A DNA stretch of 64,000 bases. It comes from Sulfurimonas sp. RIFOXYB12_FULL_35_9 (GTDB lineage Bacteria > Campylobacterota > Campylobacteria > Campylobacterales > Sulfurimonadaceae). Made by a program: the position numbers and the translations under genes. The stretch spans positions 1 through 64,000 of the forward strand of contig MICC01000090.1 of the NCBI GenBank assembly GCA_001829715.1, read 5' to 3'. Below are positions 1 through 19,568 of the stretch, piece after piece; the stretch's first letter is position 1, and the number at the start of each line of letters is the position of its first letter. A model generated the notes under the pieces. The model saw nothing but the letters and a program-made list of their open reading frames with translations, had not been told where the DNA came from and did not search any database.

Positions 1-25
1 CTCTGTAATAATAGAGGATAAATTA

Positions 26-289
26 TTGAGCGAGTTTAACGATATTGAAAATTTTACAGATGATCAGTTAGAAGAGTTTTATAAGCGTATAGGCAGTAAT
101 GTTTCCAGACTTCGTAAAAAACATAAACTTTCACAGTTAAGATTATCTGAGATGTTAAATCACACATCGACTTCGCTTGTGTCAGGAGCTGAGATTTACT
201 ATAAAAAACAGCACTTCAACTTAGAACATCTACTTAAAATATCTTTTGTACTAAATGAAGATATCTCCGAGTTTTTTAAAAAACCATAA
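26..289 (+). CDS. Small XRE-family helix-turn-helix regulator
   Basis: This 87-residue protein has a single lambda-repressor-like (XRE) helix-turn-helix at about residues 21-80, with the typical RIGSNVSRLRKKHKLSQ opening, a recognition-helix region around LNHTSTSLVSGAE and a final ISEFF segment. No other domain is present, so it probably acts as a small DNA-binding regulator; its target is unknown. The start is TTG at 26, supported by an AGAGGA ribosome-binding site at 13-18, seven bases upstream. It lies 53 bp before rimO, but rimO has its own -10 element, so they may be separate units. The family call is firm; the role is not visible. Confidence 0.8.
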   Translation: MSEFNDIENFTDDQLEEFYKRIGSNVSRLRKKHKLSQLRLSEMLNHTSTSLVSGAEIYYKKQHFNLEHLLKISFVLNEDISEFFKKP

Positions 290-311
290 AAGAAACATTT
301 GAGCTTTTAGC

Positions 312-317
312 TATAAT
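312..317 (+). promoter_or_regulatory. -10 element of the rimO-tilS promoter
   Basis: A perfect TATAAT lies 25 bp upstream of the rimO start, inside an AT-rich intergenic gap. Campylobacterota housekeeping promoters often show a good -10 and a poor -35, which fits here. Position and consensus only. Confidence 0.55.
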
Positions 318-342
318 AGCAAAAAAATAAAAAGTGGCATAA

Positions 343-1656
343 ATGGGCAATAAACTTCATATCGTATCTTTGGGATGCACAAAAAATCTAGTAGACACCG
401 AAGTTATGATGGGTAAACTTCAAAACTTCACGCTAACTGACAACCAAGAAGAGGCGGATGTTATCATCGTAAATACATGCGGTTTTATCGATGCGGCAAA
501 ACAGGAGTCTATCAACACTGTTTTAAATCTTCATGACACTAGAAAAGAGGACTCTGTTTTGGTTATGGCAGGATGTCTGAGTGAGAGATACAAAGAGGAG
601 TTAGCCAAAGATATGCCTGAGGTTGACATCTTTACAGGTGTCGGCGACTATGACAAGATTGACGAGCTTTTAGTTGAGAAAAAGAGCCGTTTTTCTGAAG
701 CTGTTTATCTCATCGACGGTGCAGAGAGGGTTGTAACCGGTTCTACTTATCATGCTTACATAAAACTCTCTGAAGGGTGTAACCAAACTTGCAGTTTCTG
801 TGCCATCCCATCTTTTAAAGGCAAGCTAAACTCAAGAACTCTTGACTCAATTGCTAAAGAGGTTGAGGGACTTGTTGCAAAAGGTTACTGGGATTTTTCA
901 TTTGTATCGCAAGACAGCTCTTCATTTTTAAGAGACCAAAATGTAAAAGACGGGCTTAGTCTTTTAATCCAAAGAATAGAGCTTATTGAGGGTGTCAAAA
1001 GTGCAAGAATCCTTTACCTGTACCCGTCTACGACGACTATTTCACTGTTAAAAAACATAGCAAAAAGTGAGATTTTTCATAACTATTTTGATATGCCGAT
1101 TCAGCACATCAACGATGACATGTTAAAGCTTATGAAGAGAGGCTTCGGTAAAAAACAGACGCTTGAACTTTTAGAGTTTATGAGAGCGCTTCCTAACTCT
1201 TTTGTAAGGACAAGCTTTATTGTCGGACATCCGCAAGAGAGTGAAGCGATGTTTGATGAGATGTGTGAATTTGCTGCAAACTTCGGATTTGACCGCATAA
1301 ATGTATTTGCATATTCAGATGAAGAGACGACTCCGGCACATGAGATGAGTGAAAAAATTCCTGCAAAAATCATCAATAAAAGAGCTGAGATTTTAGGTAA
1401 AATCGCCTCTAAATGTATGGAAAAGTCTCTTAAAGGCGAGATAGGCAAAGAGGTTCAAATCGTAATTGACGGCGAGAGCGAAGAACATGAGTACCTTTTA
1501 AGCGCAAAAGAACTTATCTGGGCGCCTGAGATCGACGGCGAGATCTATGTAAATGACAGAGCAAGTGATGAAGAGCTTGAATTTGGCAAAATTTACAAAG
1601 CAAAAATTACCGACATTATCGGAAATACATTAACTGCGACTGTAGAGAATGGTTGA
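343..1656 (+). CDS. rimO: Ribosomal protein S12 methylthiotransferase RimO
   Basis: A radical-SAM methylthiotransferase that in this family adds a methylthio group to an aspartate of ribosomal protein S12. The 437 residues match the usual RimO length. The N-terminal UPF0004 domain carries the auxiliary-cluster cysteines C12, C46 and C78. The radical-SAM motif CNQTCSFC gives C146, C150 and C153, and a TRAM domain occupies the last 60 or so residues. The opening IVSLGCTKNLVDTE is RimO-like; the MiaB paralogue in this window (17969-16668) opens with [12 protein letters not shown]. The 3' end overlaps tilS by 8 bp, so the two are co-transcribed. Confidence 0.95.
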   Translation: MGNKLHIVSLGCTKNLVDTEVMMGKLQNFTLTDNQEEADVIIVNTCGFIDAAKQESINTVLNLHDTRKEDSVLVMAGCLSERYKEELAKDMPEVDIFTGVGDYDKIDELLVEKKSRFSEAVYLIDGAERVVTGSTYHAYIKLSEGCNQTCSFCAIPSFKGKLNSRTLDSIAKEVEGLVAKGYWDFSFVSQDSSSFLRDQNVKDGLSLLIQRIELIEGVKSARILYLYPSTTTISLLKNIAKSEIFHNYFDMPIQHINDDMLKLMKRGFGKKQTLELLEFMRALPNSFVRTSFIVGHPQESEAMFDEMCEFAANFGFDRINVFAYSDEETTPAHEMSEKIPAKIINKRAEILGKIASKCMEKSLKGEIGKEVQIVIDGESEEHEYLLSAKELIWAPEIDGEIYVNDRASDEELEFGKIYKAKITDIIGNTLTATVENG

Positions 1657-2653
1657 GCAAAAAACTCTTCTTAAGCTAAAAGATAAAAAAAATCTTTTGG
1701 CATTTTCAGGCGGAGCAGATTCTACTGCTCTGTTTTTTCTTCTTCTTAAACATAACATTCCCTTTGATATAGCCATCGTTGATTACGGCATAAGAGAGCA
1801 GAGCAAAGCCGAAGTTGCTTATGCCCTAGAGCTAGCCACAACGAATAACCTTAAGTGCCATCTGCTGAGTGCTCCAAAAATTGAACAAAACTTTGAGGCA
1901 AAAGCGCGCAAGATTCGATACGACTTTTTTGAAGAGCTGATTTTAAAATACAATTATGAAAACCTCTTAACGGCTCATCATCTTGGAGACAGATTTGAGT
2001 GGATGCTTATGCAGTTTTGTAAAGGTGCAGGATGTGCTGAGATCGCCGGGATGCAAAAAGAGCAAAACAGAGGCTTTTACAAACTCATCCGCCCTCTGCT
2101 TCATCTGGATAAAAAAGAGCTTTTAGCCTATCTTCATGCGAATAAAAAAGTATATTTTGAAGATGAGAGCAACTTGGATGAGGATATAAAGAGAAATGCA
2201 TTTAGACACAACTACTCTCTTCCTCTCTTGGAGAAGTATTTGGGCGGAATCAAAAAAAGTTTTGAGTATCTTGATGAAGACAGAAACCAATTAATCAAAG
2301 ATATAGAGATAAAAACCGTAGATGAGCTTGCATACTTCAAAAGTTCACACAACAAAAGAGCCGACATTTTTGCGATAGACAAATACCTAAAAACAAAGGA
2401 TTATATGCTAAGTGCAAACGAGAGAGAAGCCCTAAGGAGCAGCTCTTCAGCTGTTGTAGGAAGATGTTTTTTAATAACTCAAGAGAGAAATTTTATCTTT
2501 ATTGTGCCATACGAAAAAGAGGTACCGAAAATGGATGAGAAATTTAAAGATGCGTGCAGAATTTTAAAAATAGAACCAAAACTTCGTCCATATCTGTACA
2601 AAAACCGAGAGGCTTTTCAAATAGTTACAGAACTTCTAACTACAGTTTCATAA
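1649..2653 (+). CDS. tilS: tRNA(Ile)-lysidine synthetase TilS
   Basis: An N-type ATP pyrophosphatase that converts the wobble cytidine of the minor isoleucine tRNA to lysidine so that it reads AUA. The PP-loop is FSGGADS at about residues 19-25. Further family signatures are TAHHLGDRFEW (about 109-119) and a conserved RHNYSLPLLEKY-type segment near 187-198. At 334 residues it is shorter than the E. coli enzyme, mainly in the C-terminal region, which is usual for this phylum. The start overlaps rimO by 8 bp, indicating translational coupling. It is expected to be essential in an AT-rich genome that uses many ATA codons. Confidence 0.93.
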   Translation: MVEQKTLLKLKDKKNLLAFSGGADSTALFFLLLKHNIPFDIAIVDYGIREQSKAEVAYALELATTNNLKCHLLSAPKIEQNFEAKARKIRYDFFEELILKYNYENLLTAHHLGDRFEWMLMQFCKGAGCAEIAGMQKEQNRGFYKLIRPLLHLDKKELLAYLHANKKVYFEDESNLDEDIKRNAFRHNYSLPLLEKYLGGIKKSFEYLDEDRNQLIKDIEIKTVDELAYFKSSHNKRADIFAIDKYLKTKDYMLSANEREALRSSSSAVVGRCFLITQERNFIFIVPYEKEVPKMDEKFKDACRILKIEPKLRPYLYKNREAFQIVTELLTTVS

Positions 2654-2673
2654 ATATAATTTATACATAAGAC

Positions 2674-2691
2674 TTAACACAAAATTAACAC
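2674..2691 (+). promoter_or_regulatory. Tandem TTAACAC repeat upstream of the TonB receptor gene
   Basis: Two identical heptamers TTAACAC (2674-2680 and 2685-2691) are separated by AAAA, giving an 11-bp period, one helical turn. They lie just upstream of a TATACT at 2700-2705, where a regulator could overlap the -35 region. OmpR-type regulators often bind tandem direct repeats with about this spacing. No regulator gene is adjacent, so the binding protein is unknown. Confidence 0.35.
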
Positions 2692-2699
2692 TTTATTAT

Positions 2700-2705
2700 T
2701 ATACT
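2700..2705 (+). promoter_or_regulatory. Candidate -10 element of the TonB-receptor operon
   Basis: TATACT lies 41 bp upstream of the receptor start codon in an AT-rich 93-bp gap after tilS. No -35 consensus is evident. It would drive the receptor, exbB and exbD, and possibly the genes beyond. Confidence 0.4.
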
Positions 2706-2746
2706 TCGTTTACAAATATTAAAACTTACTTAAGCGGAGCATATAA

Positions 2747-4939
2747 ATGAAAAAAATTGTATATCTTTCAGCAATCTGTGCACTAGCAATTAATGCTACA
2801 GCATCAGATCTAGGAACGATACAGGTTGAGTCTTCTACAATTGATAGCAAATTTGACACAAAAAAGGCAGAGGTGTCAAACGTTAGTACAATCAGCGGTG
2901 AAGATGTTGATGAAGCGCATGTTGAGAATATTCAGCAAATCTTACAATCAATTCCCGGTGTTACAACAGAAGTTAAAAGTGGCGACACTTTAAAAATCCA
3001 CCTAAGAGGTGTAGAAAATCAGATGTATATGGGCGAAAAACCCGGTGTAGCCATTGTGATTGACGGTGTGCCGGTGTTTGAGAGAACGGGCGCTGTAAAC
3101 GTAGACCTTGACAATATAGAGAGTATCAAAGTTATAAAAGGCGGTGCTTCTTATCTATTTGGCGATGATGCACTATCAGGTGCCGTAATCATAACGACAA
3201 AAAAAGGCGCAAAGTATAACAACAATTTTGGTGCTGTTGAGTTTGGAAGTTTTGGTTATCAAAAACTCTTAGCAAGAAGCGGATATGCGAATGAGGATTT
3301 AAGTTTTCATCTCCAAGCAAGCCAAAAAAAGTCTGACGGATATTGGGAAGATTCAGACTATGACGCAAAGTATTTAAACGGTAAACTGCAATACTACATC
3401 GATAATACATCTGATCTTACTTTTGGATTTGAACATTCAGACAGAAATAAAGATACACATGGAACTGTAGGCGGTGAAACTTCGGCAAGAACAAATCCTA
3501 AGTCTATTTATAGTGGAAATCAAGATGACAGAGATTATACAAGAGCTTATGATGTTGAACTCTTAAAACTATTTCTTACATACTCTAAAGATTTTAGCAA
3601 CAACTCAAACCTGCTTGTAAATGGATATATTTATACGGATGATACTGCATATATGTCGGCACCTCTGACCAAAAACGGCAGCGGAGCAACAGATTCTTCT
3701 CTTGATGATAATGATTACACTTATGACAATGACTATGCGCAGATACAAAGAGGGATAAAGAGTGAATACAGAACCTCATCTGAAAAATATGCAACACTTT
3801 TAGGTCTAGATTTAAGAGCAAACGAGTATGAAAACAAATCGACATACAGAGCAAATCAAGCACTCATAATATATGGTGGTCGTACTCCTACTATAACTCC
3901 TGATTACTATTTGGCAGGTGATTCAAAAAGTGACGACAAAACAGACGAAAATGTTTATGCCCTTTATGGAGAGTATAAACAAGAGATAGCAAAAGATTTA
4001 AGTGCAACTGCAAACCTTAGATATGACCTAATCAAGCTTGACTATAATGATTACCTAAATAATAGTTTTAAAGAGGATTTCAAAGTCTACTCATACAGAG
4101 TAGGCACAAACTATAACCTGAGCAGTAACACTCAGGTTTTTGCAAACTTCTCAACCGGCTTTAGAGCGCCTACAGTTGCTCAGCTTTATGCGGGAAGTGC
4201 AAGCAGTTGGGGATATACTCAAAACAATCCTGACTTAGAACCTGAAAAATCTTACAACTATGAGATAGGAGTAAGAATCCAAATAAGCAAAATCGATTAT
4301 GAAGCTGCAATATTCCAGATTGATAGAAAAGATTTTATCATGAAGACATCAGGAAATTACGGCGCTGCAAATACTGCAAGTACTGACATGTGGGATAATG
4401 TCGGAGGAGCTAAACATAGAGGTCTGGAGCTATCGGCTAATGGTAAAGTTGTTGATGAGTTGTCATTTAACATAGCATATACTTATCTTGACGCATATTA
4501 TACAAACTATGATAACTTCGGTATTGATTTGGACGGAAATACAAGAACTTCTAATTTGACATTTTTTAACGCAACAAAAAATGACATTCCAAGAACTCCA
4601 AAACATCAAGCCAATTTTATTTTAGACTATCTGCCAATGAAAGCTCTAACCTTAACAACAGAGATAAATGCAAAATCAGACTATTATGCTGATGATTTAA
4701 ACCAAATAAAAATACCCGGACATGCAACATTAAACCTGCTTGCAAACTACAGCAATAAAATAGGCGGTTATTCGTATAACCTTTTTGCCAGAGTAGATAA
4801 TGTTTTTGATAAATTTTACTATGGCACGGCAAGATCAAGCGGTGACAGAAATGAAGACGGTGTGTTTAATGCAGAGGATTTATCTATTACCGTAAGTCCG
4901 GGCAGAGTATATACAGCTGGACTCTCAGTTAAATTTTAA
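2747..4939 (+). CDS. TonB-dependent outer-membrane receptor
   Basis: A 22-strand beta-barrel receptor that imports a ligand across the outer membrane using TonB energy. A signal peptide (residues 1-19, MKKIVYLSAICALAINATA) is followed by a TonB-box-like segment GTIQVESS at about 23-30. A plug domain (about 45-150) includes IQQILQSIPGVTTEV, RGVENQMYMGEKPG and GGASYLFGDDALSGAVIITTKKG-like family motifs. The barrel ends in SVKF with the terminal phenylalanine used for Bam insertion. Late barrel motifs (NPDLEPEKSYNYEIG, FARVDNVFDKFYYG) are typical. At 730 residues it is in the siderophore/heme/metallophore size range. The two methionines in the plug loop MYMG could matter for a soft metal, but the ligand cannot be read from sequence. 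It is followed at once by exbB and exbD. Confidence 0.93.
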   Translation: MKKIVYLSAICALAINATASDLGTIQVESSTIDSKFDTKKAEVSNVSTISGEDVDEAHVENIQQILQSIPGVTTEVKSGDTLKIHLRGVENQMYMGEKPGVAIVIDGVPVFERTGAVNVDLDNIESIKVIKGGASYLFGDDALSGAVIITTKKGAKYNNNFGAVEFGSFGYQKLLARSGYANEDLSFHLQASQKKSDGYWEDSDYDAKYLNGKLQYYIDNTSDLTFGFEHSDRNKDTHGTVGGETSARTNPKSIYSGNQDDRDYTRAYDVELLKLFLTYSKDFSNNSNLLVNGYIYTDDTAYMSAPLTKNGSGATDSSLDDNDYTYDNDYAQIQRGIKSEYRTSSEKYATLLGLDLRANEYENKSTYRANQALIIYGGRTPTITPDYYLAGDSKSDDKTDENVYALYGEYKQEIAKDLSATANLRYDLIKLDYNDYLNNSFKEDFKVYSYRVGTNYNLSSNTQVFANFSTGFRAPTVAQLYAGSASSWGYTQNNPDLEPEKSYNYEIGVRIQISKIDYEAAIFQIDRKDFIMKTSGNYGAANTASTDMWDNVGGAKHRGLELSANGKVVDELSFNIAYTYLDAYYTNYDNFGIDLDGNTRTSNLTFFNATKNDIPRTPKHQANFILDYLPMKALTLTTEINAKSDYYADDLNQIKIPGHATLNLLANYSNKIGGYSYNLFARVDNVFDKFYYGTARSSGDRNEDGVFNAEDLSITVSPGRVYTAGLSVKF

Positions 4940-4960
4940 TACTAAAAATTGGACAAATAT

Positions 4961-5404
4961 ATGAACATAGAACTAATAAAAGATATTGTTGATTATGGAA
5001 TTATCGGACTTCTAGGAGTTATGAGTTTTATTGCTTTTTGGTTTTGGATCGAGAGACTTCTATTTTACAAAGATATAGATGTAAAGAACTTTGAGACAAA
5101 AGAGGAGCTTGAAATTGCTCTTACCAATAACATTAACATAATTGCAACATTTGGTTCTAATGCACCTTATATCGGTCTTCTTGGAACAGTATTTGGAATA
5201 ATTATCACTTTTTACGCGATGGGTCAAAGTGATTCTTTAGATGCCAAAATGATTATGACATCCCTAGCTCTTGCACTAAAAGCAACCGCTATGGGTCTTT
5301 TAGTAGCTATACCGGCAACTGTATTTTATAACCATTTGGCTAGAAAAATTGAGGTTGTTTTGGCTTTTTGGGATATTCATCAAAAGAAAAAACATGCAAA
5401 TTAA
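4961..5404 (+). CDS. exbB: ExbB-type proton-channel subunit (MotA/TolQ/ExbB family)
   Basis: Inner-membrane proton-channel component that with ExbD powers TonB. The 147-residue short form is usual in Campylobacterota. Transmembrane helices lie at about 12-30, 60-85 and 100-125, and the conserved pattern PYIGLLGTVFGIIITFYAMG is followed by ALKATAMGLLVAIPATVFYN. I chose ATG 4961 because GGA lies seven bases upstream; an in-frame TTG at 4949 would add MDKY without a ribosome-binding site. It overlaps exbD by 11 bp and follows the receptor by about 20 bp. Confidence 0.92.
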   Translation: MNIELIKDIVDYGIIGLLGVMSFIAFWFWIERLLFYKDIDVKNFETKEELEIALTNNINIIATFGSNAPYIGLLGTVFGIIITFYAMGQSDSLDAKMIMTSLALALKATAMGLLVAIPATVFYNHLARKIEVVLAFWDIHQKKKHAN

Positions 5405-5774
5405 GAAATTTGATTCTATAAATGTAGTACCTTTTATAGACATTATGCTTGTGCTTCTTGTAATAGTGCTAACTACTGCTACTTTTGTTGCGAAGGGAGT
5501 TATTCCTGTTGATCTTCCGGAGTCAAAAGTAGCAGCAAAACAGGATAATAAAAAAAACTTAACTATTAGCATAAAACAAAACGGCGAAATTTCATTTGAT
5601 ACAACGGTTGTTTTAATCGAGAATATCGAGACGAAGTTATGTGATTATGAAGCAGATATACCTATTTATATAAATTGTGACAAAAATGCGAAGTTTGATC
5701 ATTTCGTTGTTCTCATAGATATCTTAAAACAAAAGAACTTTACAAACCTTGGAATAATCACGAAAAAAGATTAA
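5394..5774 (+). CDS. exbD: ExbD-type energy-transducing protein (ExbD/TolR family)
   Basis: Partner of ExbB. The 126 residues comprise a short cytoplasmic start, one transmembrane helix (VVPFIDIMLVLLVIVLTTAT, about 10-29) containing the conserved membrane aspartate D15 used in proton transfer, and a periplasmic domain ending in a FDHFVVLIDILKQKNFTNLG-type TolR fold. I start it at ATG 5394, inside the end of exbB, because the conserved KKFDSINVVPFIDIM opening follows directly; upstream in-frame codons do not look like ExbD. It is the last gene before the structured element at 5784-5912. Confidence 0.92.
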   Translation: MQIKKFDSINVVPFIDIMLVLLVIVLTTATFVAKGVIPVDLPESKVAAKQDNKKNLTISIKQNGEISFDTTVVLIENIETKLCDYEADIPIYINCDKNAKFDHFVVLIDILKQKNFTNLGIITKKD

Positions 5775-5783
5775 TCACTAATG

Positions 5784-5912
5784 TTACGCACTAAAACGAA
5801 CTCGTCCGTTTTAGTGGCAGGGACAGATGTCCCTACAACCCCCTAAAGCTACGAAAAACTTTGTTTTTCGAGAATTACAGGGTATTTACGCTCTTTTTAT
5901 AAAAGTGCGTAA
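5784..5912. repeat. Compact element with terminal inverted repeats and internal hairpins
   Basis: A 129-bp non-coding block between exbD and the next gene is packed with perfect inverted repeats. The outer arms are TTACGCACT (5784-5792) and AGTGCGTAA (5904-5912). Inside are CACTAAAACG (5789-5798) with CGTTTTAGTG (5807-5816); AGGGACA (5819-5825) with TGTCCCT (5828-5834); and CGAAAAAC (5852-5859) with GTTTTTCG (5863-5870), enclosed by CCCT/AGGG. This density of pairing is unlike the other intergenic gaps here. It could be a MITE-like or REP-like mobile repeat, or an RNA structure that attenuates or terminates transcription between exbD and the membrane genes. No transposase is near. Confidence 0.6.
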
Positions 5913-5939
5913 GGTCACTTAGTCAAAGAGAGGTTATCT

Positions 5940-6599
5940 ATGGAATCTACAGCTTTTTTATCAATTTTCATAATAGGTCTCTCTTACGGAGCAACAGCAT
6001 GTATGTTCTCATGTATGCCGTTTTTAACGCCTCTGCTTGTAAGTAATTCAAACAGCACAAAACAGGCGTTGGGGATTATTTTGCCTTTTAGTCTAGGCAG
6101 GATAGTGAGCTATACGCTCTTGGCAATTGTTGCATATCTGAGTTCTGCTTGGATAAAACAGCTGCTTAACGACAACTCTTTATTTGGATTTATTCTTGGG
6201 ATGAGCACTTTTGGCATGGGAGCGTTTTTACTTTACAAAAGCTTTAAGCCCATCTCCTCATGCGGACATACAACACCGCTAATAAAGAAACCTAAATTAA
6301 ATAAATTTGGTTTTTTTGCTATCGGTGCAACAATGTCTATAAACCCATGTGCCCCGATTATGGCACTTTTGGCAGTTGCGGCAAACAGCAACAATATTTA
6401 CAACACTATAGGGTTGGGGCTCTTTTTTGGGCTTGGAGCCGTTATGTTCTCAATCCTGTTTTACGGATTTATAGTATCAAAAGTTATTAAGGGATTTATG
6501 ATTCAGTTCTCCTCTTACAAACTTTTTATAGAACGAGCAGCGGCACTTTTGCTTATGATAGTAGGCGTGCTTGTACTGAGTGGAACTTTAGGGCATTAA
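5940..6599 (+). CDS. DsbD/TauE-SafE-type six-helix membrane protein
   Basis: A polytopic 219-residue inner-membrane protein of the DsbD_2/CcdA/TauE-SafE type, with about six helices and an internal pseudo-repeat. Key features are a CMFSCMP motif in helix 1 (about residues 21-27), an SSCGHT loop (about 106-111) and NPCAP in helix 4 (about 139-143). CcdA-like proteins pass electrons from cytoplasmic thioredoxin to the periplasm through helix cysteines beside proline; relatives in copper-handling clusters are annotated as heavy-metal or sulfite exporters. It is preceded by AGAGG and followed after 18 bp by the polyferredoxin fusion, suggesting thiol redox or metal handling for that protein. Thiol transfer and metal transport cannot be separated from sequence. 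Confidence 0.7.
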   Translation: MESTAFLSIFIIGLSYGATACMFSCMPFLTPLLVSNSNSTKQALGIILPFSLGRIVSYTLLAIVAYLSSAWIKQLLNDNSLFGFILGMSTFGMGAFLLYKSFKPISSCGHTTPLIKKPKLNKFGFFAIGATMSINPCAPIMALLAVAANSNNIYNTIGLGLFFGLGAVMFSILFYGFIVSKVIKGFMIQFSSYKLFIERAAALLLMIVGVLVLSGTLGH

Positions 6600-6617
6600 A
6601 ATAGAAAAAGGACAAAA

Positions 6618-9371
6618 ATGGTAAATTTTATAAAACGTGACAAAGATGATATTTATGCGAAACCTCTCCTTGGGTTTTTCTTTAAAAATCAAAAATTTTT
6701 ACTCTCGTTAAAAATAGCAGTCTCAGCACTGTTTGTGTATGCTCTTTACTTTGGTTTTGCACATACAGGCAAAGAAAACACATTTACTACTGCGGTTTTT
6801 TGGGGAATTTTCTGGTCTTTGTTTATGGTTACAACACTTCCGACATTTGGACGAATTTTTTGCGGTATCTGCCCTCACGGATTTATGGGAAAATACATCA
6901 CAAAATATGGACTTAAAAAAACCATGCCAAAATGGATGCAAAACAGATATATCGGCGTAATGCTGCTTGTGTTTGGCTGGTGGGGCGTTTACTATATGTT
7001 TCCGGGTCTCTTTAGAACAGCTCAGGGCACGGCAATTTTATTTACCGTTATGACGCTTATCGCTTTTGTAGTTTACTTTCTCTACAAAGACATGAGCTAC
7101 TGCAAATATATCTGTCCCATCGGAACGCTTACAAGAGCCTACTCAAAACTCTCATTTACATGGCTTGGCACATATAAGAGTGCATGTGATGAGTGTAGAA
7201 CTTTTGAGTGTGCCACCGCATGTCCGTACAATTTAAAACCTTTTACATTTGACAACAGAAACTCTATGACGGATTGTACGCTCTGCATGGATTGCAGCAG
7301 TGCATGTGAAGCCGTCAGTTTTAAATTTAAAAAGCCCTCTTTTTCTCTTTTTTCAAAACTTCAAGTTCTAAAAGCAGAGGTTTGGGCATTTATCCTTATC
7401 CTCGCTTCCATATCCATCAGCATGTCATTTCATCACGGCATAGGAAGAAGCAACGCTGCGGATATTATGATATGGTCAAAAACAGCCGAGTTTTTGAAAA
7501 ATTATATAAATTTTGGCTCCATTGATGCAGTCGGTCTTTTTGCATTTATCTATGCCCTTATTTTTACTATTTCAGCTGCGCTTATAGGTATGTTTATAGC
7601 TGCTAAAATTCTCAAAAAAGATTTTAATACTACATTTTATGATTTGGGATACTCCTACGCGCCACTCTTTATCTTAGGTTCTATCGCCCATTCGCTTGAA
7701 ATGTTTTTTCTTAAAGGGTACGAGCATATCACAGAGGGGTTTGCTTATGGATTTGGATTTACTTTAGATGTTGCACCGTTGGCAAACAGAGGAGATAGCT
7801 GGCTGCATCTATTTGGCTTACTGAAATGGGTTGCAATCATCTGGGCACTTATCATTCTCTACAAAAGAGTGAAGCTTTTAAATGTGACTAAACTAAGAAA
7901 AATAGTCGCTTTTCCTTTTGCGGCATCTTTAATCATCTTCTTTCTCAGTATTGATATCTACACAGGGTATATCTTCAAAACTTACGGCAAAGCATCAAGC
8001 GGACACGCAAATCATGGAGGCGGTGAAAAACTTTTCCAAGGCGTTCCTGCAGAAGCTGCTACTATTTTACAATCCGGAAAAAACAAAAACAGTTGTACTA
8101 CATGCGGTATGGAACTGGCAAAATCCTACAAGGCAAATCATGTTGCAAAACAAAACGATGAAATAAAACAGTTTTGTTCTATGCACTGCCTTGCACAAGA
8201 GATGTCAATCAACAAAACTCAGCTTGAAGATATTCAAACTGTTGATACAAAGAGTTTAAAATTTATAAATGCAAAAGAGGCTTATTATGTCTTAGGAAGC
8301 AAAATAAGAGGCATCATGACAAAGAGCAGCAAGTTTGCTTTTGCAGACAAAAATGATGCTTTGGATTTTGTAAAAGAAAACGGCGGAAAAGTAGTTACTT
8401 TTGAAGAAGCATATAAGAATGCTCTGGATGATTTTAAGCCCTCGCAAGCAACTGACATGAAAAAACCTGCCATAAACGACAGCGTATATTTTTCACAAAG
8501 CAATCCCCAAATCAAAAAAACAGGTTACGGCGGCGAGCATAATCATGGTGGAGACAGAGTTCCGACAAAAGAGGTATGGCCTGTTTTTGAAGACAGTCTG
8601 GGCAGTAAAAACTGTTTTACAGAGATAGATGCCTCGATATATCTTCTTGATGCAAATCTAAGCACAACGCAAGCAACTGCTTCAAAAAGTGCAGGATGTA
8701 AATCCGTAAGCTTTAAAATGCCCGACAACGGATACTACAACGTTTTTTATATAGATAAAAAAATCCAAGACAACACGCTGCATGTAAAAACCGCAAAGTA
8801 TGAGTTTATGAGATTTAACCACAGTAACGACGCCGTTTATGACAAAGAGAAGATGGCGGCACACACAATCAAAGAGACTCCTTTTGATATAGTAAGAATC
8901 AGAGAAGAGGATGAAACTTTTTACCACAATCTCTATTCCGGTGAAAATTTAAGGGTTCAGGTTCTGCTTGATGGAAAGCCTCTTGAGAGAGCGGACATAA
9001 CGCTAAGAACAAAAACTCTCTGGTCTAAGAGTTTAAAAACCGACAAAGATGGAGTTGCAACTTTTGCACTTATTGAGGACTATTTTCCGAACTGGAGTGA
9101 CTTTGACAAAAGATATAAAAACGAATTTTTATTAACCGCCTCTTACGAGAGAGATATACATGGCGATATAAACGGTACAAAATTTGAGAAAATAAGATAT
9201 AGCGCAACATATCCCTCCTTCTACCATCCAAACAACTCACAATACCGCTCTTATGCTTATGGTTTATCGGCGGCTATTGTAACTATCATAGTCTCAGGAT
9301 TTGCCATCTACTGGTATAGAGCAAGACGAGAAAAACCATTTAAAGAGGTCTCTTTTAATGAAAAAGATTAG
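6618..9371 (+). CDS. Polyferredoxin fusion: NapH-like + NosL-like + NikK/DUF4198-like
   Basis: A 917-residue membrane protein with an unusual domain order. Residues 1-240 are a NapH/NosR-type module with CGICP (82-86) and CKYICP (162-167), then two [4Fe-4S] motifs: C190, C193, C198, C202 and C220, C223, C226, C230. Further helices run to about 455. A histidine-rich patch (HANHGGG, 463-469) precedes a NosL-like part with CTTCGM (493-498) and CSMHC (520-524), which suggests soft-metal binding. A second His patch (GGEHNHGG, 638-645) leads to a DUF4198/NikK-like beta domain (about 770-870, GKPLERADITLR and TDKDGVATFAL). One C-terminal helix (881-899) re-anchors it. The metal-binding parts probably face the periplasm. 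I infer quinol-linked electron transfer coupled to periplasmic metal handling. It overlaps the next gene by 14 bp. Confidence 0.75.
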   Translation: MVNFIKRDKDDIYAKPLLGFFFKNQKFLLSLKIAVSALFVYALYFGFAHTGKENTFTTAVFWGIFWSLFMVTTLPTFGRIFCGICPHGFMGKYITKYGLKKTMPKWMQNRYIGVMLLVFGWWGVYYMFPGLFRTAQGTAILFTVMTLIAFVVYFLYKDMSYCKYICPIGTLTRAYSKLSFTWLGTYKSACDECRTFECATACPYNLKPFTFDNRNSMTDCTLCMDCSSACEAVSFKFKKPSFSLFSKLQVLKAEVWAFILILASISISMSFHHGIGRSNAADIMIWSKTAEFLKNYINFGSIDAVGLFAFIYALIFTISAALIGMFIAAKILKKDFNTTFYDLGYSYAPLFILGSIAHSLEMFFLKGYEHITEGFAYGFGFTLDVAPLANRGDSWLHLFGLLKWVAIIWALIILYKRVKLLNVTKLRKIVAFPFAASLIIFFLSIDIYTGYIFKTYGKASSGHANHGGGEKLFQGVPAEAATILQSGKNKNSCTTCGMELAKSYKANHVAKQNDEIKQFCSMHCLAQEMSINKTQLEDIQTVDTKSLKFINAKEAYYVLGSKIRGIMTKSSKFAFADKNDALDFVKENGGKVVTFEEAYKNALDDFKPSQATDMKKPAINDSVYFSQSNPQIKKTGYGGEHNHGGDRVPTKEVWPVFEDSLGSKNCFTEIDASIYLLDANLSTTQATASKSAGCKSVSFKMPDNGYYNVFYIDKKIQDNTLHVKTAKYEFMRFNHSNDAVYDKEKMAAHTIKETPFDIVRIREEDETFYHNLYSGENLRVQVLLDGKPLERADITLRTKTLWSKSLKTDKDGVATFALIEDYFPNWSDFDKRYKNEFLLTASYERDIHGDINGTKFEKIRYSATYPSFYHPNNSQYRSYAYGLSAAIVTIIVSGFAIYWYRARREKPFKEVSFNEKD

Positions 9372-10338
9372 AGATTTTATAAACAATGCGGATATTAGAA
9401 GATTTCGCTTTTGGCTGCAACTCCTCTTTTTTGTCATCTTTATCTACGGCGGATATTTTGCTATCAACTTAGGAAACAGCATCCCCGTATTTTCCTGCGG
9501 ATACGATAAAGCAGTTGGAGGCATGTGTTATTTTCTGCCGCTTCAGCATCAACTTGCCCGTCCATTGGATGTACTCTTTAGCGTAGCAAGCATTTCGGTT
9601 TTGATTGGCTTTGTCACTTTTTTGCTCTGGTTTATCATCTTCAACAAAGCATGGTGCGGTTATGCATGTCCTCTTGGAACTATGCAGGATTGGATTACGG
9701 GACTACGAAAAAAGATGGGCATAAGATACAGCACCTACACGCAGCCTCAGTTTGACAAGCTGAAAAAGATAAAATATATCATGTTGGCTTTAGTAATTTT
9801 AGCACCGATGGGTGTGGGCATGGGGCTTCTTGGAGGCGAATGGAGAACCGCATTTTGCGAAATATGCCCCGGCAGGATGATAACGCCTCTTTTTGTAGGC
9901 GATGTCTCGCAATGGAGTTTGGACTTTTCAACAAAAACAGCGATGATACTGACTACGCTGGGGCTGATTTTTACGGGTCTTTTTCTTATAGGTTCCTTTT
10001 TTAAGAAAAGGTTTTTCTGCTTTTTCTGTCCGATGAGTGCCATGCACTACATTTTTAGCGACGGGGCACTTTTAAAACTGAAAAAAGAGGGCGACAAATG
10101 CACAAAATGCGGCGACTGCTACAATGTCTGCGATATGCAGATAAAAGATATCGCCGATGATGTCAAAAGTACAAACATCCTAAGAGACGACTGCATCTTT
10201 TGCATGAAGTGTGTAGCCGCATGTCCTGAGGATGACGCTCTGCATGTAGATATTTTAAATATGAAACTCTTCACATCGACAAAAGGCGGCTTTGCAAAAA
10301 GAATGGAGATGGATAGGTTGGAGAAAAAAAATGACTGA
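9358..10338 (+). CDS. NapH/NosR-like membrane polyferredoxin
   Basis: A 326-residue membrane iron-sulfur protein. Four or five helices carry paired-cysteine motifs CGYACP (C100, C104), CEICP (C167, C170) and CFFCP (C221, C224). Two classical ferredoxin motifs follow: C248, C251, C254, C258 and C279, C282, C285, C289. In NapH and relatives this arrangement takes electrons from the quinone pool. Here it lies directly before the double-cubane protein and its activase, so it is a candidate electron donor. The start is ATG 9358, preceded by AGAGG and overlapping the previous gene by 14 bp; the frame is open upstream to 9301 but lacks support. Its end overlaps the next gene by 8 bp. Confidence 0.82.
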   Translation: MKKIRDFINNADIRRFRFWLQLLFFVIFIYGGYFAINLGNSIPVFSCGYDKAVGGMCYFLPLQHQLARPLDVLFSVASISVLIGFVTFLLWFIIFNKAWCGYACPLGTMQDWITGLRKKMGIRYSTYTQPQFDKLKKIKYIMLALVILAPMGVGMGLLGGEWRTAFCEICPGRMITPLFVGDVSQWSLDFSTKTAMILTTLGLIFTGLFLIGSFFKKRFFCFFCPMSAMHYIFSDGALLKLKKEGDKCTKCGDCYNVCDMQIKDIADDVKSTNILRDDCIFCMKCVAACPEDDALHVDILNMKLFTSTKGGFAKRMEMDRLEKKND

Positions 10339-11596
10339 ACATAAAATTGAGACACCAAAAGAGAGACAAAACCGACATAAAGCGATGGAAGCCGCTGCCG
10401 TTTTGGAGAAGATAAAACATGATTTCAAAGAACCGCCTAAAGCAATGGAGTATTTTTACGACCTTTTTGAGAGAGTGCATTGCAAACATGAGGCTCTTCA
10501 CGGCGATAAAGCCAAAGTAGGAACCATGTGTATTCAAGTTCCCTCCGAGATAATCCATGCGCTTGACGCTGTTCCGCTTAGACTCTGCAACGGTTTTTAC
10601 ACGGATGACGAGATAGGAAGCGACCTGCTCCCATCAAAATCATGCCCTTTAGTAAAAGCAACAGTTGGACAATTCGCTTCAAACAACTTCTCTGACAAGC
10701 CCGATATAGTTATATCTCCCACTACATGTGATCAAAAAGCAAAATCGGGAGCGATTATAGAAAATATGGGATTTGAAGTTTACGACATGGAGTTTCCGCG
10801 AACAAAAGAGAGCCATGAGAGCAGAGAGTACTGGAGACGAAGTGTGAGAAAATTTACAAAAGATCTCTCGCAAAATCTCAACACAAAACTCTCAAAGAAA
10901 AAACTCAAAGATGCCATTAAAAAAGTGGGATATGCCCAACATCTCTACCACAAATTAAATATATTGCGAAAAAATAACAACTCCCCCATCTTAGGCAAAG
11001 ATATGTTTTTGGTAACCAATGCATTCTTTTTTGACAAGATAGATAATTGGGTTGAAGCGGTGGAAGCTCTTGCAAATGAGTGTGAGCAGAGAGTTAAAGA
11101 TGAAATAAGCGTAGCTTCAAAAAGAAGCCCCAGAATCGTCTATACGGGTTCACCTCCGATATTTCCAAATCTCAAAATCCCTCTTTTGATAGAACTCTCA
11201 GACGCTATTATCGTTGCAGACGAAACATGCTCGTCAAACCGAATGTTCAATGACATGGTAAGCGTGGATGAGTGGTTTGTGAATGATATGGTTGATTCCA
11301 TAGCAGACAGATATCTCAAAGGGTGTACATGCCCCATTTTTACCAAAAATGAGGATAGAAAAAGAAGAATATTAGACCTTGTTAGGGACTATAAAGCCGA
11401 CGGTGTAATTTATCAGGCATTTGCCGGATGTCAGGTATATGAGATGGAGCAAAAATCTGTTTTAGAAGCGATGGAGAAGGCTGGAGTGCCGATACTCTAT
11501 CTTGAAACAGACTACTCTCCAAGCCATTTGGGACAACTTACAACGAGAATAGAAGCTTTTGTAGAGTCGCTTAAAAATAGGAAAAGGAGACAATAA
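10331..11596 (+). CDS. Double-cubane-type protein of the 2-hydroxyacyl-CoA dehydratase family
   Basis: A 421-residue single-subunit member of the HgdB/BcrB superfamily. Cysteines that could ligate clusters are C67, C86 (LRLCNGF), C105 (SCPLVK), C133 (SPTTCDQ), C300 (DETCSSNR), C332/C334 (GCTCP) and C367 (FAGCQVYE). The ending LETDYSPSHLGQLTTRIEAF is the usual family C-terminus. CoA dehydratases and reductases have two such subunits; a single subunit beside one activase fits the double-cubane cluster proteins (DCCP; the Carboxydothermus member reduces acetylene, azide and hydrazine with ATP) and E. coli YjiM. No CoA ligase, CoA transferase or second subunit is nearby, so an acyl-CoA substrate is unlikely. 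The substrate is unknown. The start ATG 10331 lies inside the previous gene; the 3' end overlaps the activase by one base. Confidence 0.8.
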   Translation: MTEHKIETPKERQNRHKAMEAAAVLEKIKHDFKEPPKAMEYFYDLFERVHCKHEALHGDKAKVGTMCIQVPSEIIHALDAVPLRLCNGFYTDDEIGSDLLPSKSCPLVKATVGQFASNNFSDKPDIVISPTTCDQKAKSGAIIENMGFEVYDMEFPRTKESHESREYWRRSVRKFTKDLSQNLNTKLSKKKLKDAIKKVGYAQHLYHKLNILRKNNNSPILGKDMFLVTNAFFFDKIDNWVEAVEALANECEQRVKDEISVASKRSPRIVYTGSPPIFPNLKIPLLIELSDAIIVADETCSSNRMFNDMVSVDEWFVNDMVDSIADRYLKGCTCPIFTKNEDRKRRILDLVRDYKADGVIYQAFAGCQVYEMEQKSVLEAMEKAGVPILYLETDYSPSHLGQLTTRIEAFVESLKNRKRRQ

Positions 11597-12402
11597 TGCA
11601 CTATTTTGCAGGGATTGACATAGGATCAACGGCAATTAAAATTGCGATTGTGGATGAGAGCAAAAAATTGGTTGGACATAAGATAAGTGCGAGCGGCAGT
11701 ATGTTTTATAAATATGCGAAACAGGCTTTAGGGGATATGTTGAACGAACTTAGCATTGATGCAAATGATTTGGTTTATACAGTCGCAACCGGATATGGAA
11801 GAAAACTCTTTAAAGAAGCGGATGAAAACATAAGCGAAATTACCGCAAATGCGATGGGTGCCTTAGCTGCGGCAGATGGAAAATGCGATATCAGAACCAT
11901 CATAAACATCGGCGGTCAGGATTCAAAAGCCATTTCACTCGATAGCGAAGGTCATGTTGTCAACTTTGCCATGAATGACAGATGTGCGGCAGGAACGGGA
12001 AAATTTTTGGATGTTGTTGCTATGAACTTAGAGATTGAAGTAGATGAACTAGGCGAATATCACTTCAAATCAAAAGGCACGCCGCTGGCAATCAATAGCA
12101 CATGTGCGGTGTTTGCAGAATCAGAGATTATCGGACTTTTGGGAAACAACAACAGTGTAGAGGATATCGTAGCCGGTGTTCACTACTCTATCGCAAAGAG
12201 AATTATTAAACTTGTAAAAAGAGTAGGAATAAAAGAGGGCATCTATTTTGACGGCGGACCTGCACTCAACAGTGGTTTAGTCAGTGCAATCGAGAATGAG
12301 CTTGGCATGCGGATATTTATCCCTCAGTTTCCTCAGATAACGACCTCTTTAGGTGCTGCAATATTGGCACATGAATCTCATGGGTATGAAAGCAAAGAAT
12401 AA
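11596..12402 (+). CDS. ATP-dependent activase of the HgdC/BcrA/YjiL type
   Basis: A 268-residue ASKHA-fold ATPase that in this family, as a homodimer with one shared [4Fe-4S] cluster, drives single low-potential electrons into its partner at the cost of ATP. Visible motifs are GIDIGST (6-12), ATGYGR (64-69), IGGQDSK (105-111), NDRCAAGTGKFL with C130, NSTCAVFAESE with C170, and FDGGPALN. C130 and C170 correspond to the bridging-cluster ligands. Length matches HgdC (about 260). The stop of the double-cubane gene and this start share one base, with AGGAGA just upstream, so the two are translationally coupled. The pair is the catalytic core of the locus. Confidence 0.9.
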   Translation: MHYFAGIDIGSTAIKIAIVDESKKLVGHKISASGSMFYKYAKQALGDMLNELSIDANDLVYTVATGYGRKLFKEADENISEITANAMGALAAADGKCDIRTIINIGGQDSKAISLDSEGHVVNFAMNDRCAAGTGKFLDVVAMNLEIEVDELGEYHFKSKGTPLAINSTCAVFAESEIIGLLGNNNSVEDIVAGVHYSIAKRIIKLVKRVGIKEGIYFDGGPALNSGLVSAIENELGMRIFIPQFPQITTSLGAAILAHESHGYESKE

Positions 12403-12471
12403 TGAAAATCATAAAAAACTTAAAAATTTTATCTTTACACAATATATTATTTTATAAAAAGTAGCAAAAAC

Positions 12472-13170
12472 ATGCACAGATATCTCTCTTCATCTATTAT
12501 TAGCACTCTTTTTTATCTCTGTGTCGGTGCATTGATTTTTTACTTTTTTTCAGTTCATAAGTACAGTGCGGAGGATATTGAAATTGTCAAGATTGAGAGA
12601 GTATGCTTATCAACAATTACTCAAAAAAGTGAGCCGATAATAGAAAAAGAAAAAATAAAAGAAGTTGAACCTGAACCCAAAGAGATAAAAGAGAAACCAA
12701 AACCGATTAAAAAAGAACCGATTGCAAAACCTACTCCCAAGCCCGATACTAAACCTACTCCGGACTTTGAACCCATTGCTGAGCCAACTCAAAAATCAAC
12801 TGAGCACGAGACAAAAGAAATCGTAACAGAACAAAAAAACAGCGTTTCAACAAGTACAAATAACGTACCGGATATTGACATGTCAGAGGCAAAAAGAGAA
12901 CTGTTTATCGCAAATTTAATTCAACGAATCAATAGCAATAAATCATACCCCAACTCAGCCAGAAGAAGATCTATAGAGGGGAGCGTAGAAGTTGAATTTA
13001 CCGTATTAGCCGATGGAAATGTAAAAAATATTGAGATTATTTCAGGTCAAAATATTTTTGCAGAATCAACTATAGAGGCGATAAAAAATAGCTTTCCCGT
13101 AAAAATAGATGATGGATTATTTGTTTTTCCAAAAAAGTTTAAAGTTGATATTTTATATATCTTAAAATAA
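12472..13170 (+). CDS. tonB: TonB energy-transducing protein
   Basis: A 232-residue TonB: one N-terminal helix (about 8-26, TLFYLCVGALIFYFF), a long Pro/Lys/Glu-rich periplasmic spacer (about 50-120 with repeated EPKP-like units), and a C-terminal TonB domain with YPNSARRRSIEGSVEVEF and VKNIEIISGQ. It would contact the TonB box of the receptor at 2747 and be powered by ExbB/ExbD at 4961-5774. Placing tonB 7 kb from exbBD, after the redox genes, suggests that import and reduction genes form one unit. A 69-bp AT-rich gap precedes it, so it may have its own promoter. It converges on the PilO-like gene, with only 5 bp between the stops. Confidence 0.9.
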   Translation: MHRYLSSSIISTLFYLCVGALIFYFFSVHKYSAEDIEIVKIERVCLSTITQKSEPIIEKEKIKEVEPEPKEIKEKPKPIKKEPIAKPTPKPDTKPTPDFEPIAEPTQKSTEHETKEIVTEQKNSVSTSTNNVPDIDMSEAKRELFIANLIQRINSNKSYPNSARRRSIEGSVEVEFTVLADGNVKNIEIISGQNIFAESTIEAIKNSFPVKIDDGLFVFPKKFKVDILYILK

Positions 13171-13175
13171 AAGAG

Positions 13176-13712
13176 TTATTTAGAGCTGTTTGAATCTTTA
13201 TTGTTATAAACTCTCATAGTAAAAGAGGAGTCTATCATTTCACCGTCTCTTTTAAAAGCTATAGGAAAATTAACCGCTATAATCCAGTTACTTTTATTTA
13301 CCGCATCTAAAAAATCATAAAAACTCTTCGGTGAACTTATCTCAGAAGTTGTGTTGACCTCATATACACTAAAACCGTCTTCATCTCCAAGCTGACTCCT
13401 TTTAGTAATGCTCAAAGCACTAAAAAAGCCTTGATGCTGCTTTTTAAATTTATCTGCACTAAACTCGTTCTCAAAGGCTTTGATAGCATGGGAGTTATCA
13501 CCTTGAAGTTTTTGAAGAATTACTTCTTTCTCGATTGCAAAATCAGATAACTGTTTTAGCTCTAAGTTCTCTTTTTTAAGTTCGCCTCTTTTTAGCCTAT
13601 AATCTTTGCCCTCCGGAATTAAAACGGCAAAAGAAAAAACCAAAACAAACACAAGTAAAAATAGGCAAAGTGTAAAAAGATAGATATTTTGTCTGGAGAA
13701 ACTACTCTTCAC
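13176..13712 (-). CDS. PilO-like membrane protein
   Basis: A 178-residue protein with one N-terminal helix (about 10-32), a charged coiled coil (about 38-80) and a small C-terminal alpha/beta domain (PKSFYDFLDAVNKSNWII then SFTMRVYN). That architecture is the PilO/GspM type of type IV pilus and type II secretion assembly platforms. It is the last of three overlapping genes with PilM-, PilN- and PilO-like order. The call rests on architecture and position, since such proteins diverge strongly. Campylobacter Cts transformation proteins are possible counterparts. Confidence 0.5.
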   Translation of the reverse strand: MKSSFSRQNIYLFTLCLFLLVFVLVFSFAVLIPEGKDYRLKRGELKKENLELKQLSDFAIEKEVILQKLQGDNSHAIKAFENEFSADKFKKQHQGFFSALSITKRSQLGDEDGFSVYEVNTTSEISSPKSFYDFLDAVNKSNWIIAVNFPIAFKRDGEMIDSSFTMRVYNNKDSNSSK

Positions 13713-14229
13713 TGCTTAACTCCTCTTCATTGTCTATATAGTTGGTAGATACAAACCGCAGCCAACCGTTTTGTGCAGGGTAAAAACTGCTGTATGTTCT
13801 ATGAAAAATCGAGCGCAGCGGTGCTTGAAGCATAAAATTATATACATCTTTGTTTGGTGTTATCCCGTGAAGGATAAGAGCATTTTCCATTATTTTTGCT
13901 TCGGAGAGAGTTATTCTACTTGGAACTAAATCAAATAGATTATTGATACTGTCCCTTAGTACGCTGTTCTTTGTAAATATCTTCTCTGATAATAAAAGCT
14001 GCTTCTCAATAGTCGCAATCTCATTATTCATTTTTACAATATTTGCACGATACTCGTCTTTTTGCATTTTAATATCAGACATCTCCTGCATAAATCTTTG
14101 ATCTTTAAAGATTAAAAAAGCATAAGTACTAAAAAGCATAAAAAGAGTAACACTAAAAAAGGTAAAAAGCAGTTGTATCTCTTTTGTAAAGACACTCTTT
14201 TTTCTCGGATTTATATAACTATATCTCAT
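13702..14229 (-). CDS. PilN-like membrane protein
   Basis: A 175-residue protein with a basic N-terminus (MRYSYINPRKKS), one helix (about 18-42), a coiled coil (about 45-80) and a fold segment LFDLVPSRITLSEAKIMENAL then LILHGITPNKDVYNFML that resembles the PilN/GspL periplasmic domain. The short cytoplasmic tail with INPR is reminiscent of the PilN motif that binds PilM. It overlaps both neighbours by 11 bp. Confidence is moderate because no single residue is diagnostic. Confidence 0.5.
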   Translation of the reverse strand: MRYSYINPRKKSVFTKEIQLLFTFFSVTLFMLFSTYAFLIFKDQRFMQEMSDIKMQKDEYRANIVKMNNEIATIEKQLLLSEKIFTKNSVLRDSINNLFDLVPSRITLSEAKIMENALILHGITPNKDVYNFMLQAPLRSIFHRTYSSFYPAQNGWLRFVSTNYIDNEEELSSEE

Positions 14230-15226
14230 TCGCCTCTGCCTTTGCCAAATCGCATAATGAGATTGCCAGATCTATCTTTCTTACATAAACGCTTAAAAAC
14301 ATCTCCTCTTCCAAATAGTTTTTAAGGTCAGGACTTACTCCGACACCGTCTGCTATATATATAATCTCTATAAATTTACTGTCATATTTTGAATCTTTGT
14401 AAAAAGTATTTAACGAACTCTGTATCAATGAAAATCTCTGATAATCTTCATTAAATCCGTCATGTGAAACATCAACGTCTTTAACTACAATCGGTTTTAC
14501 CTCTTGTTCTTCAGAAAACTCATCAATCGTGTCTCCCTCGTCAAGTTCCTCAATATTTGCAAAATCATCAAAAACCATAGAATCATCTTCCAAACTCACC
14601 TCTTCTAAATCAATCCCTTCCATTTCAAAAGAGAGATCATCATACGCTGGTGAGTCTATCATAAGATTGTCATCATCTTTGTGATTATCCATATCCAGAT
14701 ACTTAGCATAGAGAAGTCTCGAATTCTCAAAAACAGTAAAAGAGAGATAATTGTCCTCAATCAAAACAAACATCGATAGGCTATTGTCTATCTTGTCTTT
14801 AAAGAAATTTGTCAATATAACAAAAGGTGAAAAGATAAAATCAATGCCAATATTTCTATATTCAAGCTTTATTGCCGTTAAATCATATTCTGACGTATAG
14901 TATGCCCAATCTTTAGAAAAACATCTATATTCAGAAGAATTAATATCACAAAACTTTTTCATCTCACTTACCGTACATGTCGGAATTGCACCTTGATGTC
15001 TAGATTTATCTAAAATTGAAATATAGAAAAACGGTGACTCTTTCACATATGTTTGTATGAATTCATACATTTTAGAATTCATAACTGTAGTATCGAAACT
15101 TTTACGAATACTCTGCTCTACCTCTTTCTTTGAGCACACTTCAACATATATAGTTGTCTGTAAATTTCCAATAATAATATTTATAAAAACTTTTGTATAC
15201 AAAGCCTCTAAAAACTTCGTTATCAT
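14219..15226 (-). CDS. PilM-like cytoplasmic protein (uncertain)
   Basis: A 335-residue soluble protein without transmembrane segment, with alternating strands and helices (FVLIEDNYLSFTVFENSRLLYAKYLDMD; IIYIADGVGVSPDLKNYLEEE) that resemble an ASKHA-type PilM/GspL-N fold, plus a highly acidic insert at about 195-245. Clear actin-like phosphate motifs are not visible, so nucleotide binding is doubtful. The order PilM-like, PilN-like, PilO-like argues for a pilus or competence assembly platform. Its start overlaps the recombinase stop by 4 bp (ATGA). Confidence 0.42.
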   Translation of the reverse strand: MITKFLEALYTKVFINIIIGNLQTTIYVEVCSKKEVEQSIRKSFDTTVMNSKMYEFIQTYVKESPFFYISILDKSRHQGAIPTCTVSEMKKFCDINSSEYRCFSKDWAYYTSEYDLTAIKLEYRNIGIDFIFSPFVILTNFFKDKIDNSLSMFVLIEDNYLSFTVFENSRLLYAKYLDMDNHKDDDNLMIDSPAYDDLSFEMEGIDLEEVSLEDDSMVFDDFANIEELDEGDTIDEFSEEQEVKPIVVKDVDVSHDGFNEDYQRFSLIQSSLNTFYKDSKYDSKFIEIIYIADGVGVSPDLKNYLEEEMFLSVYVRKIDLAISLCDLAKAEANEI

Positions 15227-17969: not shown

Positions 17970-17978
17970 TCTAAAAAC

Positions 17979-18224: not shown

Positions 18225-18317
18225 AATTTATCCTTTTTTTACTCTGCTCTACTTTTTTTGCATTATAGTGGAACTCTACTAAAAATCGCATTAAAGCTGA
18301 TTTTATGGCTATTTTGG

Positions 18318-19540: not shown

Positions 19541-19568
19541 TATTACACACTATAATAAAAAAATATCT

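Follow-up and report, generated by a model that had tools for sequence, protein, structure and literature searches.

The window analysed here is a stretch of 64,000 nucleotides from Sulfurimonas sp. RIFOXYB12_FULL_35_9 (contig MICC01000090.1, positions 1 to 64,000), in which an operon-like run of nine genes on the + strand joins a TonB-dependent receptor and its ExbB, ExbD and TonB proteins to NapH-like iron-sulfur (Fe-S) proteins and to an HgdB-family protein with its ATP-dependent activase. We see an even chance that this run is a copper-acquisition module that is controlled together with copper genes and releases its metal by ATP-driven reduction. The run begins with the TonB-dependent outer-membrane receptor (2747-4939; PF00593, 174.1 bits; PF07715, 68.7 bits), whose closest solved structures are PqqU and YncD, and continues with ExbB (4961-5404, counted from an ATG at 4961, the listed open reading frame (ORF) starting with a TTG at 4949; TIGR02805, 178.7 bits, cut-off 135.35) and ExbD (from about 5394 to 5774; PF02472, 91.7 bits; TIGR02804, 114.6 bits, below the cut-off of 123.45). 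These are followed by a DsbD_2/CcdA-like membrane protein (5940-6599; PF13386, 67.4 bits), with four cysteines (21, 25, 108 and 137) present in 45 of 45 aligned proteins, and by a fusion protein of 917 amino acids (6618-9371), which combines a NapH-like Fe-S membrane part (Fer4_5), a NosL domain (residues 489-598; PF05573, 64.5 bits against a gathering score of 24) and a DUF4198-like periplasmic domain with a C-terminal helix. The ORF of the second NapH-like polyferredoxin, NapH2 (9358-10338; Fer4_5 and two-cluster ferredoxin matches; alignment A3), overlaps that of the HgdB-family double-cubane-type protein (10331-11596; PF06050, 325.9 bits), after which come the activase (11596-12402; TIGR00241, 232.8 bits, above the cut-off of 125.4) and TonB (12472-13170; PF03544, 54.2 bits). 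All nine ORFs are open where a preliminary description of the sequence had placed them, and its gene order, coordinates and families are borne out by the ORF map and the profile scores, as is the tight spacing from the DsbD-like gene through the activase, with gaps of 18 base pairs (bp) or overlaps. The NapH quinol dehydrogenase model TIGR02163 (cut-off 213.05) was not reached by NapH2 (80.0 bits) or by the fusion (29.8 bits); NapH2 and the membrane part of the fusion are NapH-like only. The gap between the activase gene and tonB is 69 bp, and in this place several relatives have an RND transporter gene (~1029 amino acids, PF00873), which is absent from the window locus.

The same arrangement recurs in many genomes and is therefore beyond chance (below, L-numbers denote examined loci and G-numbers genomes, G000 being that of the window). 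An HgdB match was found in 18 of 99 relatives, 13 belonging to the clade of the window protein (62-100% identity) and five to the ordinary kind (31-34%). Genome contigs were also scanned with patterns drawn from this HgdB clade, which cannot detect distant forms; the scan yielded 61 loci, 59 of them from Campylobacterota lineages, one titled 'bacterium' and one from Petrimonas (L068); the last clusters with Campylobacterota rows in both trees and is therefore read as mis-binned. HgdB is preceded directly by NapH2 in all 57 loci with sequence there (four more lie at a contig edge), the listed NapH2 and HgdB ORFs overlap except in L056, L076 and the decayed L096, and the activase is the direct downstream neighbour of HgdB in 56 of 59 loci, with two more at a contig edge. 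When the contents of the run were counted in the 36 loci with the upstream end in view, some of which are near-duplicates (e.g., L087 and L093), a TonB receptor lay inside the run in 33, a DUF4198-like or C309 protein in 35 and DsbD_2 in 31, while the RND transporter was found in 13, ExbB in 12 and TonB in 10. The link to the receptor is thus strong and the ExbBD and TonB genes are optional. Across 397 genomes of the phylum, HgdB scores fall into 27 of at least 695 bits with the next at 259, NapH2 scores into 27 of at least 522 bits with the next at 253, and by comparison of the lists by eye the same 27 genomes carry both clades. At loci of the ordinary HgdB and activase, NapH, ExbBD and TonB were found in none of 18 within the stretches available; one such locus (L040) has a weak receptor match on the opposite strand. 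In the clade of the window, pairs occurring only without TonB genes were not seen, and the proposal that the TonB side and the pair belong together agrees with these counts.

By profile, sequence and fold, the closest relative of the HgdB protein is the double-cubane cluster protein DCCP, in line with the suggestion that it is of the double-cubane type. It scores 345.7 bits with the curated DCCP model NF040772, a near miss of the cut-off of 350, and its best relatives in the PDB, both by sequence and by fold, are the DCCP entries 7yyl and 6eno. The predicted structure (mean predicted local distance difference test (pLDDT) 72.6; residues 300-318 and 331-337 are weakly predicted) matches DCCP with a TM-score of 0.83 at 33% identity, and seven of its cysteines, invariant in the 11 rows of alignment A1, align with cysteines of DCCP. 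DCCP and its reductase thus share with the pair described here the fold and the seven aligned cysteines, and here too the activase gene stands directly downstream; what sets the present clade apart from DCCP is its gene order, which ties it to NapH2 and to a receptor. In the available part of a report in which the biological function of DCCP is described as unknown, the class I benzoyl-CoA reductase subunit BzdN likewise receives ATP-driven electrons via an [8Fe-9S] cluster, a proposed relay or store, but belongs to a two-subunit CoA enzyme of aromatic degradation (PMC11971306). Six of the eight irons of the BzdNO [8Fe-9S] cluster are bound by cysteines (PMC11971306).

The run in the window is preceded by a direct repeat, TTAACA-N5-TTAACA, on the + strand (2674-2690), which we propose as a copper-regulon box, and by a -10-like stretch downstream of it (~2696-2706); the site starts 73 bp before the receptor ATG, so the box stands shortly upstream of the first gene, the position that we take to mark a member of the regulon. 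The pattern was derived from words enriched upstream of receptors, i.e., it was chosen on the same data in which, with at most one mismatch, it occurs in 52 of 57 receptor upstream regions, near-duplicates included, against 7 of 176 control regions upstream of unclassified genes in the same loci. The exceptions have two mismatches (L048, L051 and L086) or, at one BtuB-like gene each in L085 and L139, three mismatches, and a -10-like element follows the box at a fixed distance. A stricter pattern matched 32 of 60 genomes of the genus, with 44 sites against a single reversed-pattern site, and 119 of 248 genomes of the order, with nine reversed-pattern sites in all. A position weight matrix built from 46 distinct sites gave the window site 42.9, the top score among the 30 site loci scored in its own genome (39 listed), ahead of an OprC-like receptor (27.3), a NosL protein (23.4) and then 14.5; the best NCBIfam family of this OprC-like receptor is TonB-copper, at 198 bits, below the cut-off of 472. 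A candidate OmpR-type response-regulator family is encoded near modules in L051, L055, L056, L085 and L091, and in L239, L241, L243 and L260 the box precedes the gene of the candidate regulator itself, which makes autoregulation via the box possible. Control by Fur was considered and rejected, as the best Fur-like score reached at least 11 of 14 in 4 of the 57 receptor regions and in 9 of the 176 controls.

The genes behind the box point to its meaning. We collected 98 distinct sites including that of the window, from 30 automatically chosen loci each of the genus and order scans and 40 hand-picked ones, and assigned each first gene to a class by its best BLAST hit among seeds, one for every class. 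NosL (21), OprC-like receptors (13), PCuAC (6) and a CopD-like protein (1) stood beside module-type (9) and BtuB-like (9) receptors, DsbD_2 (6), ExbB (5), response regulators (3), FtsX (3), cytochrome-like proteins (2) and a thioredoxin-like protein (1); 16 first genes were unclassified, and three sites had no ORF within 350 bases. The distance from the beginning of the site to the start codon was 50-75 bp in 51 of the 79 classified cases. Pfam confirmed PCuAC in two cases and NosL in L156, L187 and L240, with a weak match for CopD, and a Pfam scan of 8 of the 16 unclassified genes gave one each of nosZ, COX1, MbnP, PepSY_TM, MMPL, VanY and BOF and one with no clear family. Because the first genes often belong to copper families, the motif is best read, from gene content, as a copper regulon box, and a putative regulon made up of receptors, chaperones and copper enzymes would serve supply more plausibly than detoxification. 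A phosphate (PhoP-like) reading of the box was rejected, since no phosphate gene was recognised among the classified or scanned first genes, as was corrinoid uptake for a BtuB-like receptor, which reached 237 bits with TIGR01779 against 599.7. At single sites the box stands just upstream of nosZ (L268; G136:C1:762290) and of the COX1 oxidase gene (L272; G492:C24), and it precedes a gene of the MbnP family (L263; G082:C12), a family known from methanobactin operons. The genome of the window itself has two nosZ genes above the family cut-off (G000:C5 and G000:C126).

The fusion supplies a candidate binding site for the metal. Its modelled C-terminal domain (mean pLDDT 85.3) is predicted to have the DUF4198/Zcp metal-binder fold: it aligns with copper-bound Zcp (9mhm; Z 18.3, root-mean-square deviation (rmsd) 2.8, 200 residues aligned) and with a Ni-bound DUF4198 protein (9gcb; Z 15.6, rmsd 3.1, 187 aligned), after which the rows of the fold search drop to Z 6.2, and the DUF4198 Pfam score of the fusion, 33.3, falls just under the cut-off of 34. 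Zcp has been solved with copper, zinc or cobalt. Among the metal ligands expected of this fold is an N-terminal histidine; in the fusion the domain is not N-terminal, and it has a His-containing loop of low confidence and one His that is nearly invariant. The NosL domain is variable among relatives, being present in the window, L024, L026, L027 and L033 and absent from L025, L028, L030, L032 and L035.

In the mechanism that we propose, the TonB receptor would draw on the ExbBD-TonB proteins of the run to bring a copper complex into the periplasm, and the DUF4198-like and NosL domains of the fusion would bind the metal. The activase would charge the double-cubane-type HgdB protein with ATP-driven electrons, HgdB would hand very low-potential electrons to NapH2 at its cytoplasmic Fe-S part, and together with the NapH-like membrane part of the fusion NapH2 would carry them to the periplasmic side for the reductive release of copper; DsbD_2 may serve to hold thiols of the periplasm in the reduced state, and the RND pump of relatives may expel the emptied ligand. 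What the analysis shows is the gene content and its conservation, the shared box, the copper families behind it at other sites and the fold of the periplasmic domain. We infer copper for this receptor, the reductive release, the direction of the electrons and the roles of DsbD_2 and the RND pump; the metal of the module is very probably copper. The preliminary description had proposed an uptake-plus-reduction pathway with two outcomes, of which the freeing of a metal from an imported complex is favoured, sharpened to copper by the shared box, whereas the reduction of a substrate in the cytoplasm is less supported: no conserved inner-membrane importer was found between the module genes (unclassified genes stand there in 3 of 61 runs; run ends are not annotated).

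The direction of electron flow was judged from gene trees and gene order. In the NapH2 tree, the proteins partnered with C309 fall into a single clade (99/97; 98% of 200 bootstrap trees); in the HgdB tree the C309-partner label needs four changes. This contrast is one of degree, because the labels are clustered in both trees relative to shuffled ones (HgdB four changes against a shuffle mean of 11.7, NapH2 shuffle mean 12.1); moreover, NapH2 proteins with a fused Cdom partner do not part from those whose partner is free (4 and 3 changes), and both points weigh against the direction that we propose. In L058, L059, L071, L080 and L098, three of whose runs are complete upstream, two NapH2 genes with different periplasmic partners are followed by a single HgdB-activase pair. 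NapH2 thus behaves as an adapter specific to the receptor side and HgdB with its activase as a shared engine. Since NapH2 follows its periplasmic partner, for which there would be little reason if it were only a quinol donor, HgdB may feed NapH2 rather than the reverse, a conclusion that we hold and doubt in equal measure. The earlier idea that NapH proteins feed the activase is thereby made doubtful. One rival reading has NapH2 taking electrons from quinol and passing them to the activase, with HgdB reducing an imported compound, e.g., the chelator, in the cytoplasm; the NapH family is one of quinol dehydrogenases, and the NapH2 and HgdB ORFs overlap in most loci, yet the module genes enclose no conserved importer for such a compound, and a quinol source need not vary with the periplasmic partner by which NapH2, more than HgdB, is grouped. 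We regard this as unlikely, if still a serious candidate.

Clusters without HgdB bear on the place of the pair in the machine. L134, L136, L137 and L140, whose genomes gave no HgdB match in the phylum scan, combine a receptor, P273 (DUF4198-like, 21% identical to the C-terminal domain of the fusion), a divergent NapH (NapHdiv) and DsbD_2 behind the same TTAACA box, with a TonB gene in L137 and L140. Given such clusters, the ATP-driven pair has the look of an add-on engine for a simpler machine of receptor and NapH. The same clusters would suit a role in which HgdB and its activase do not turn over with the substrate and only occasionally re-reduce Fe-S centres that have become over-oxidised in NapH2 or the fusion; corrinoid proteins and MCR are known to be activated by ATP-driven reduction. 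Such activation or repair would, however, fit a looser linkage than the invariable position of HgdB directly after NapH2, and we find it distinctly unlikely.

We give little credence to the same machine serving iron, nickel or another metal, with the box marking a broader metal or redox regulon. In the accessible parts of published reports DUF4198 is tied to nickel and iron systems (PMC12537917, PMC11870441), the best model of the window receptor is of the siderophore type (212 bits, cut-off 223.5), and 18 receptors among the 98 box genes have ligands that are not known. On the other side, Fur-like scores upstream of receptors are as in the controls, and copper families dominate the classified and scanned first genes, among which, with eight unscanned, no iron, nickel or phosphate gene was recognised. 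That the module handles toxic copper instead of acquiring it is scarcely credible: copper two-component systems often answer excess and RND transporters occur in 13 of the 36 runs, but the box genes are receptors, chaperones, nosZ and COX1, and no CopA- or Cus-type exporter was recognised among the first genes classified or scanned.

Several observations weigh against copper acquisition by ATP-driven reduction. One solved DUF4198 protein prefers nickel over copper according to the available part of its report (PMC12537917), so the fold alone cannot name the metal. The window receptor reaches only 26.5 bits with the TonB-copper model TIGR01778 (OprC/NosA; cut-off 472.45). The first genes of the MMPL, VanY and BOF families have no copper link, and 8 of the 16 unclassified genes lie outside the scan; nosZ is not enriched with the module, being present in 14 of 27 module genomes and in 13 of 20 genus-mates that lack the module. 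For the response regulator there is only a candidate, whose best match in the window's own genome scores 258 bits against 305-353 in seven genomes. The loose repeat, which allows one mismatch, shows no enrichment across the genome of the window (39 sites against 34 reversed), and its three sites in the window were equalled in 13 of 100 shuffles; the stricter pattern is enriched, and the signal is therefore carried by the longer pattern and the promoter position. Finally, quinol should suffice to reduce ordinary Cu(II), and only an unusual copper complex would call for ATP-driven electrons. With a confidence somewhat short of even, we picture the pair as an ATP-powered engine that would push super-reduced electrons through the NapH-type proteins to free copper from quinol-resistant complexes, for example strong nitrogen or thiolate chelates, and that would serve several interchangeable receptors.

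Parts of this machine resemble known systems. CcoG, whose Fe-S make-up is NapH-like, is likewise a membrane protein that reduces Cu(II); in the parts of the literature available, this cupric reductase differs in working with the assembly of cbb3 oxidase and lacking a TonB receptor or ATP-driven donor. CrtA/CrpH of Bordetella, as far as the accessible parts of two reports describe it, also places a TonB receptor and a candidate membrane reductase in a copper operon, in some species with its own ExbBD-TonB genes, but its membrane protein is a heme-type PepSY_TM protein and its control is exerted by the CruR upstream ORF (PMC12914433, PMC13038864), where the present module has NapH-like Fe-S proteins with an ATP-driven double-cubane-type pair and a DNA box. 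No PepSY match was found among the nine window proteins. A Caulobacter locus with PepSY, DUF2271 and DUF4198 proteins is likewise proposed, in the available part of its report, to reduce metal in the periplasm with a DUF4198 partner; it differs in concerning iron, in being a Fur target and in using PepSY and flavin reductase proteins (PMC11870441). A literature search at the level of titles and abstract openings found no description of a TonB receptor combined with NapH and a double-cubane pair. If the engine picture is true, a DCCP-type protein would, to our knowledge, have a physiological role for the first time, and reductive metal uptake driven by ATP would be without a precedent known to us. 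Through the explanation offered here, one DCCP-type clade gains a concrete, testable role and metal. We propose the copper regulon and its box for many Campylobacterota, and in at least one genome the box precedes nosZ; the proposal bears on the copper supply for N2O removal by denitrifiers in sulfidic, copper-poor water.

Some minor features of the loci remain to be described. No Rfam (riboswitch) match was found in positions 1-20000 of the window, six loci gave only a tRNA match and no riboswitch, and a simple promoter scan was uninformative (38 found against 32.2 expected). A decayed HgdB copy with several stops adjoins an open activase frame in L014/L096, and second HgdB copies in L075 and L076 have no adjacent activase, which stands beside another copy in the same genomes. 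Between exbD and dsbD_2 the window has a repeat element with 9-bp perfect inverted ends (5784-5912, no strand assigned), which has 15 matches in its own genome, itself counted; it is probably an insertion, likely of the miniature inverted-repeat transposable element (MITE)-like kind, and the gap between the two genes measures 165 bp in the window against 18 bp in the related locus L025.

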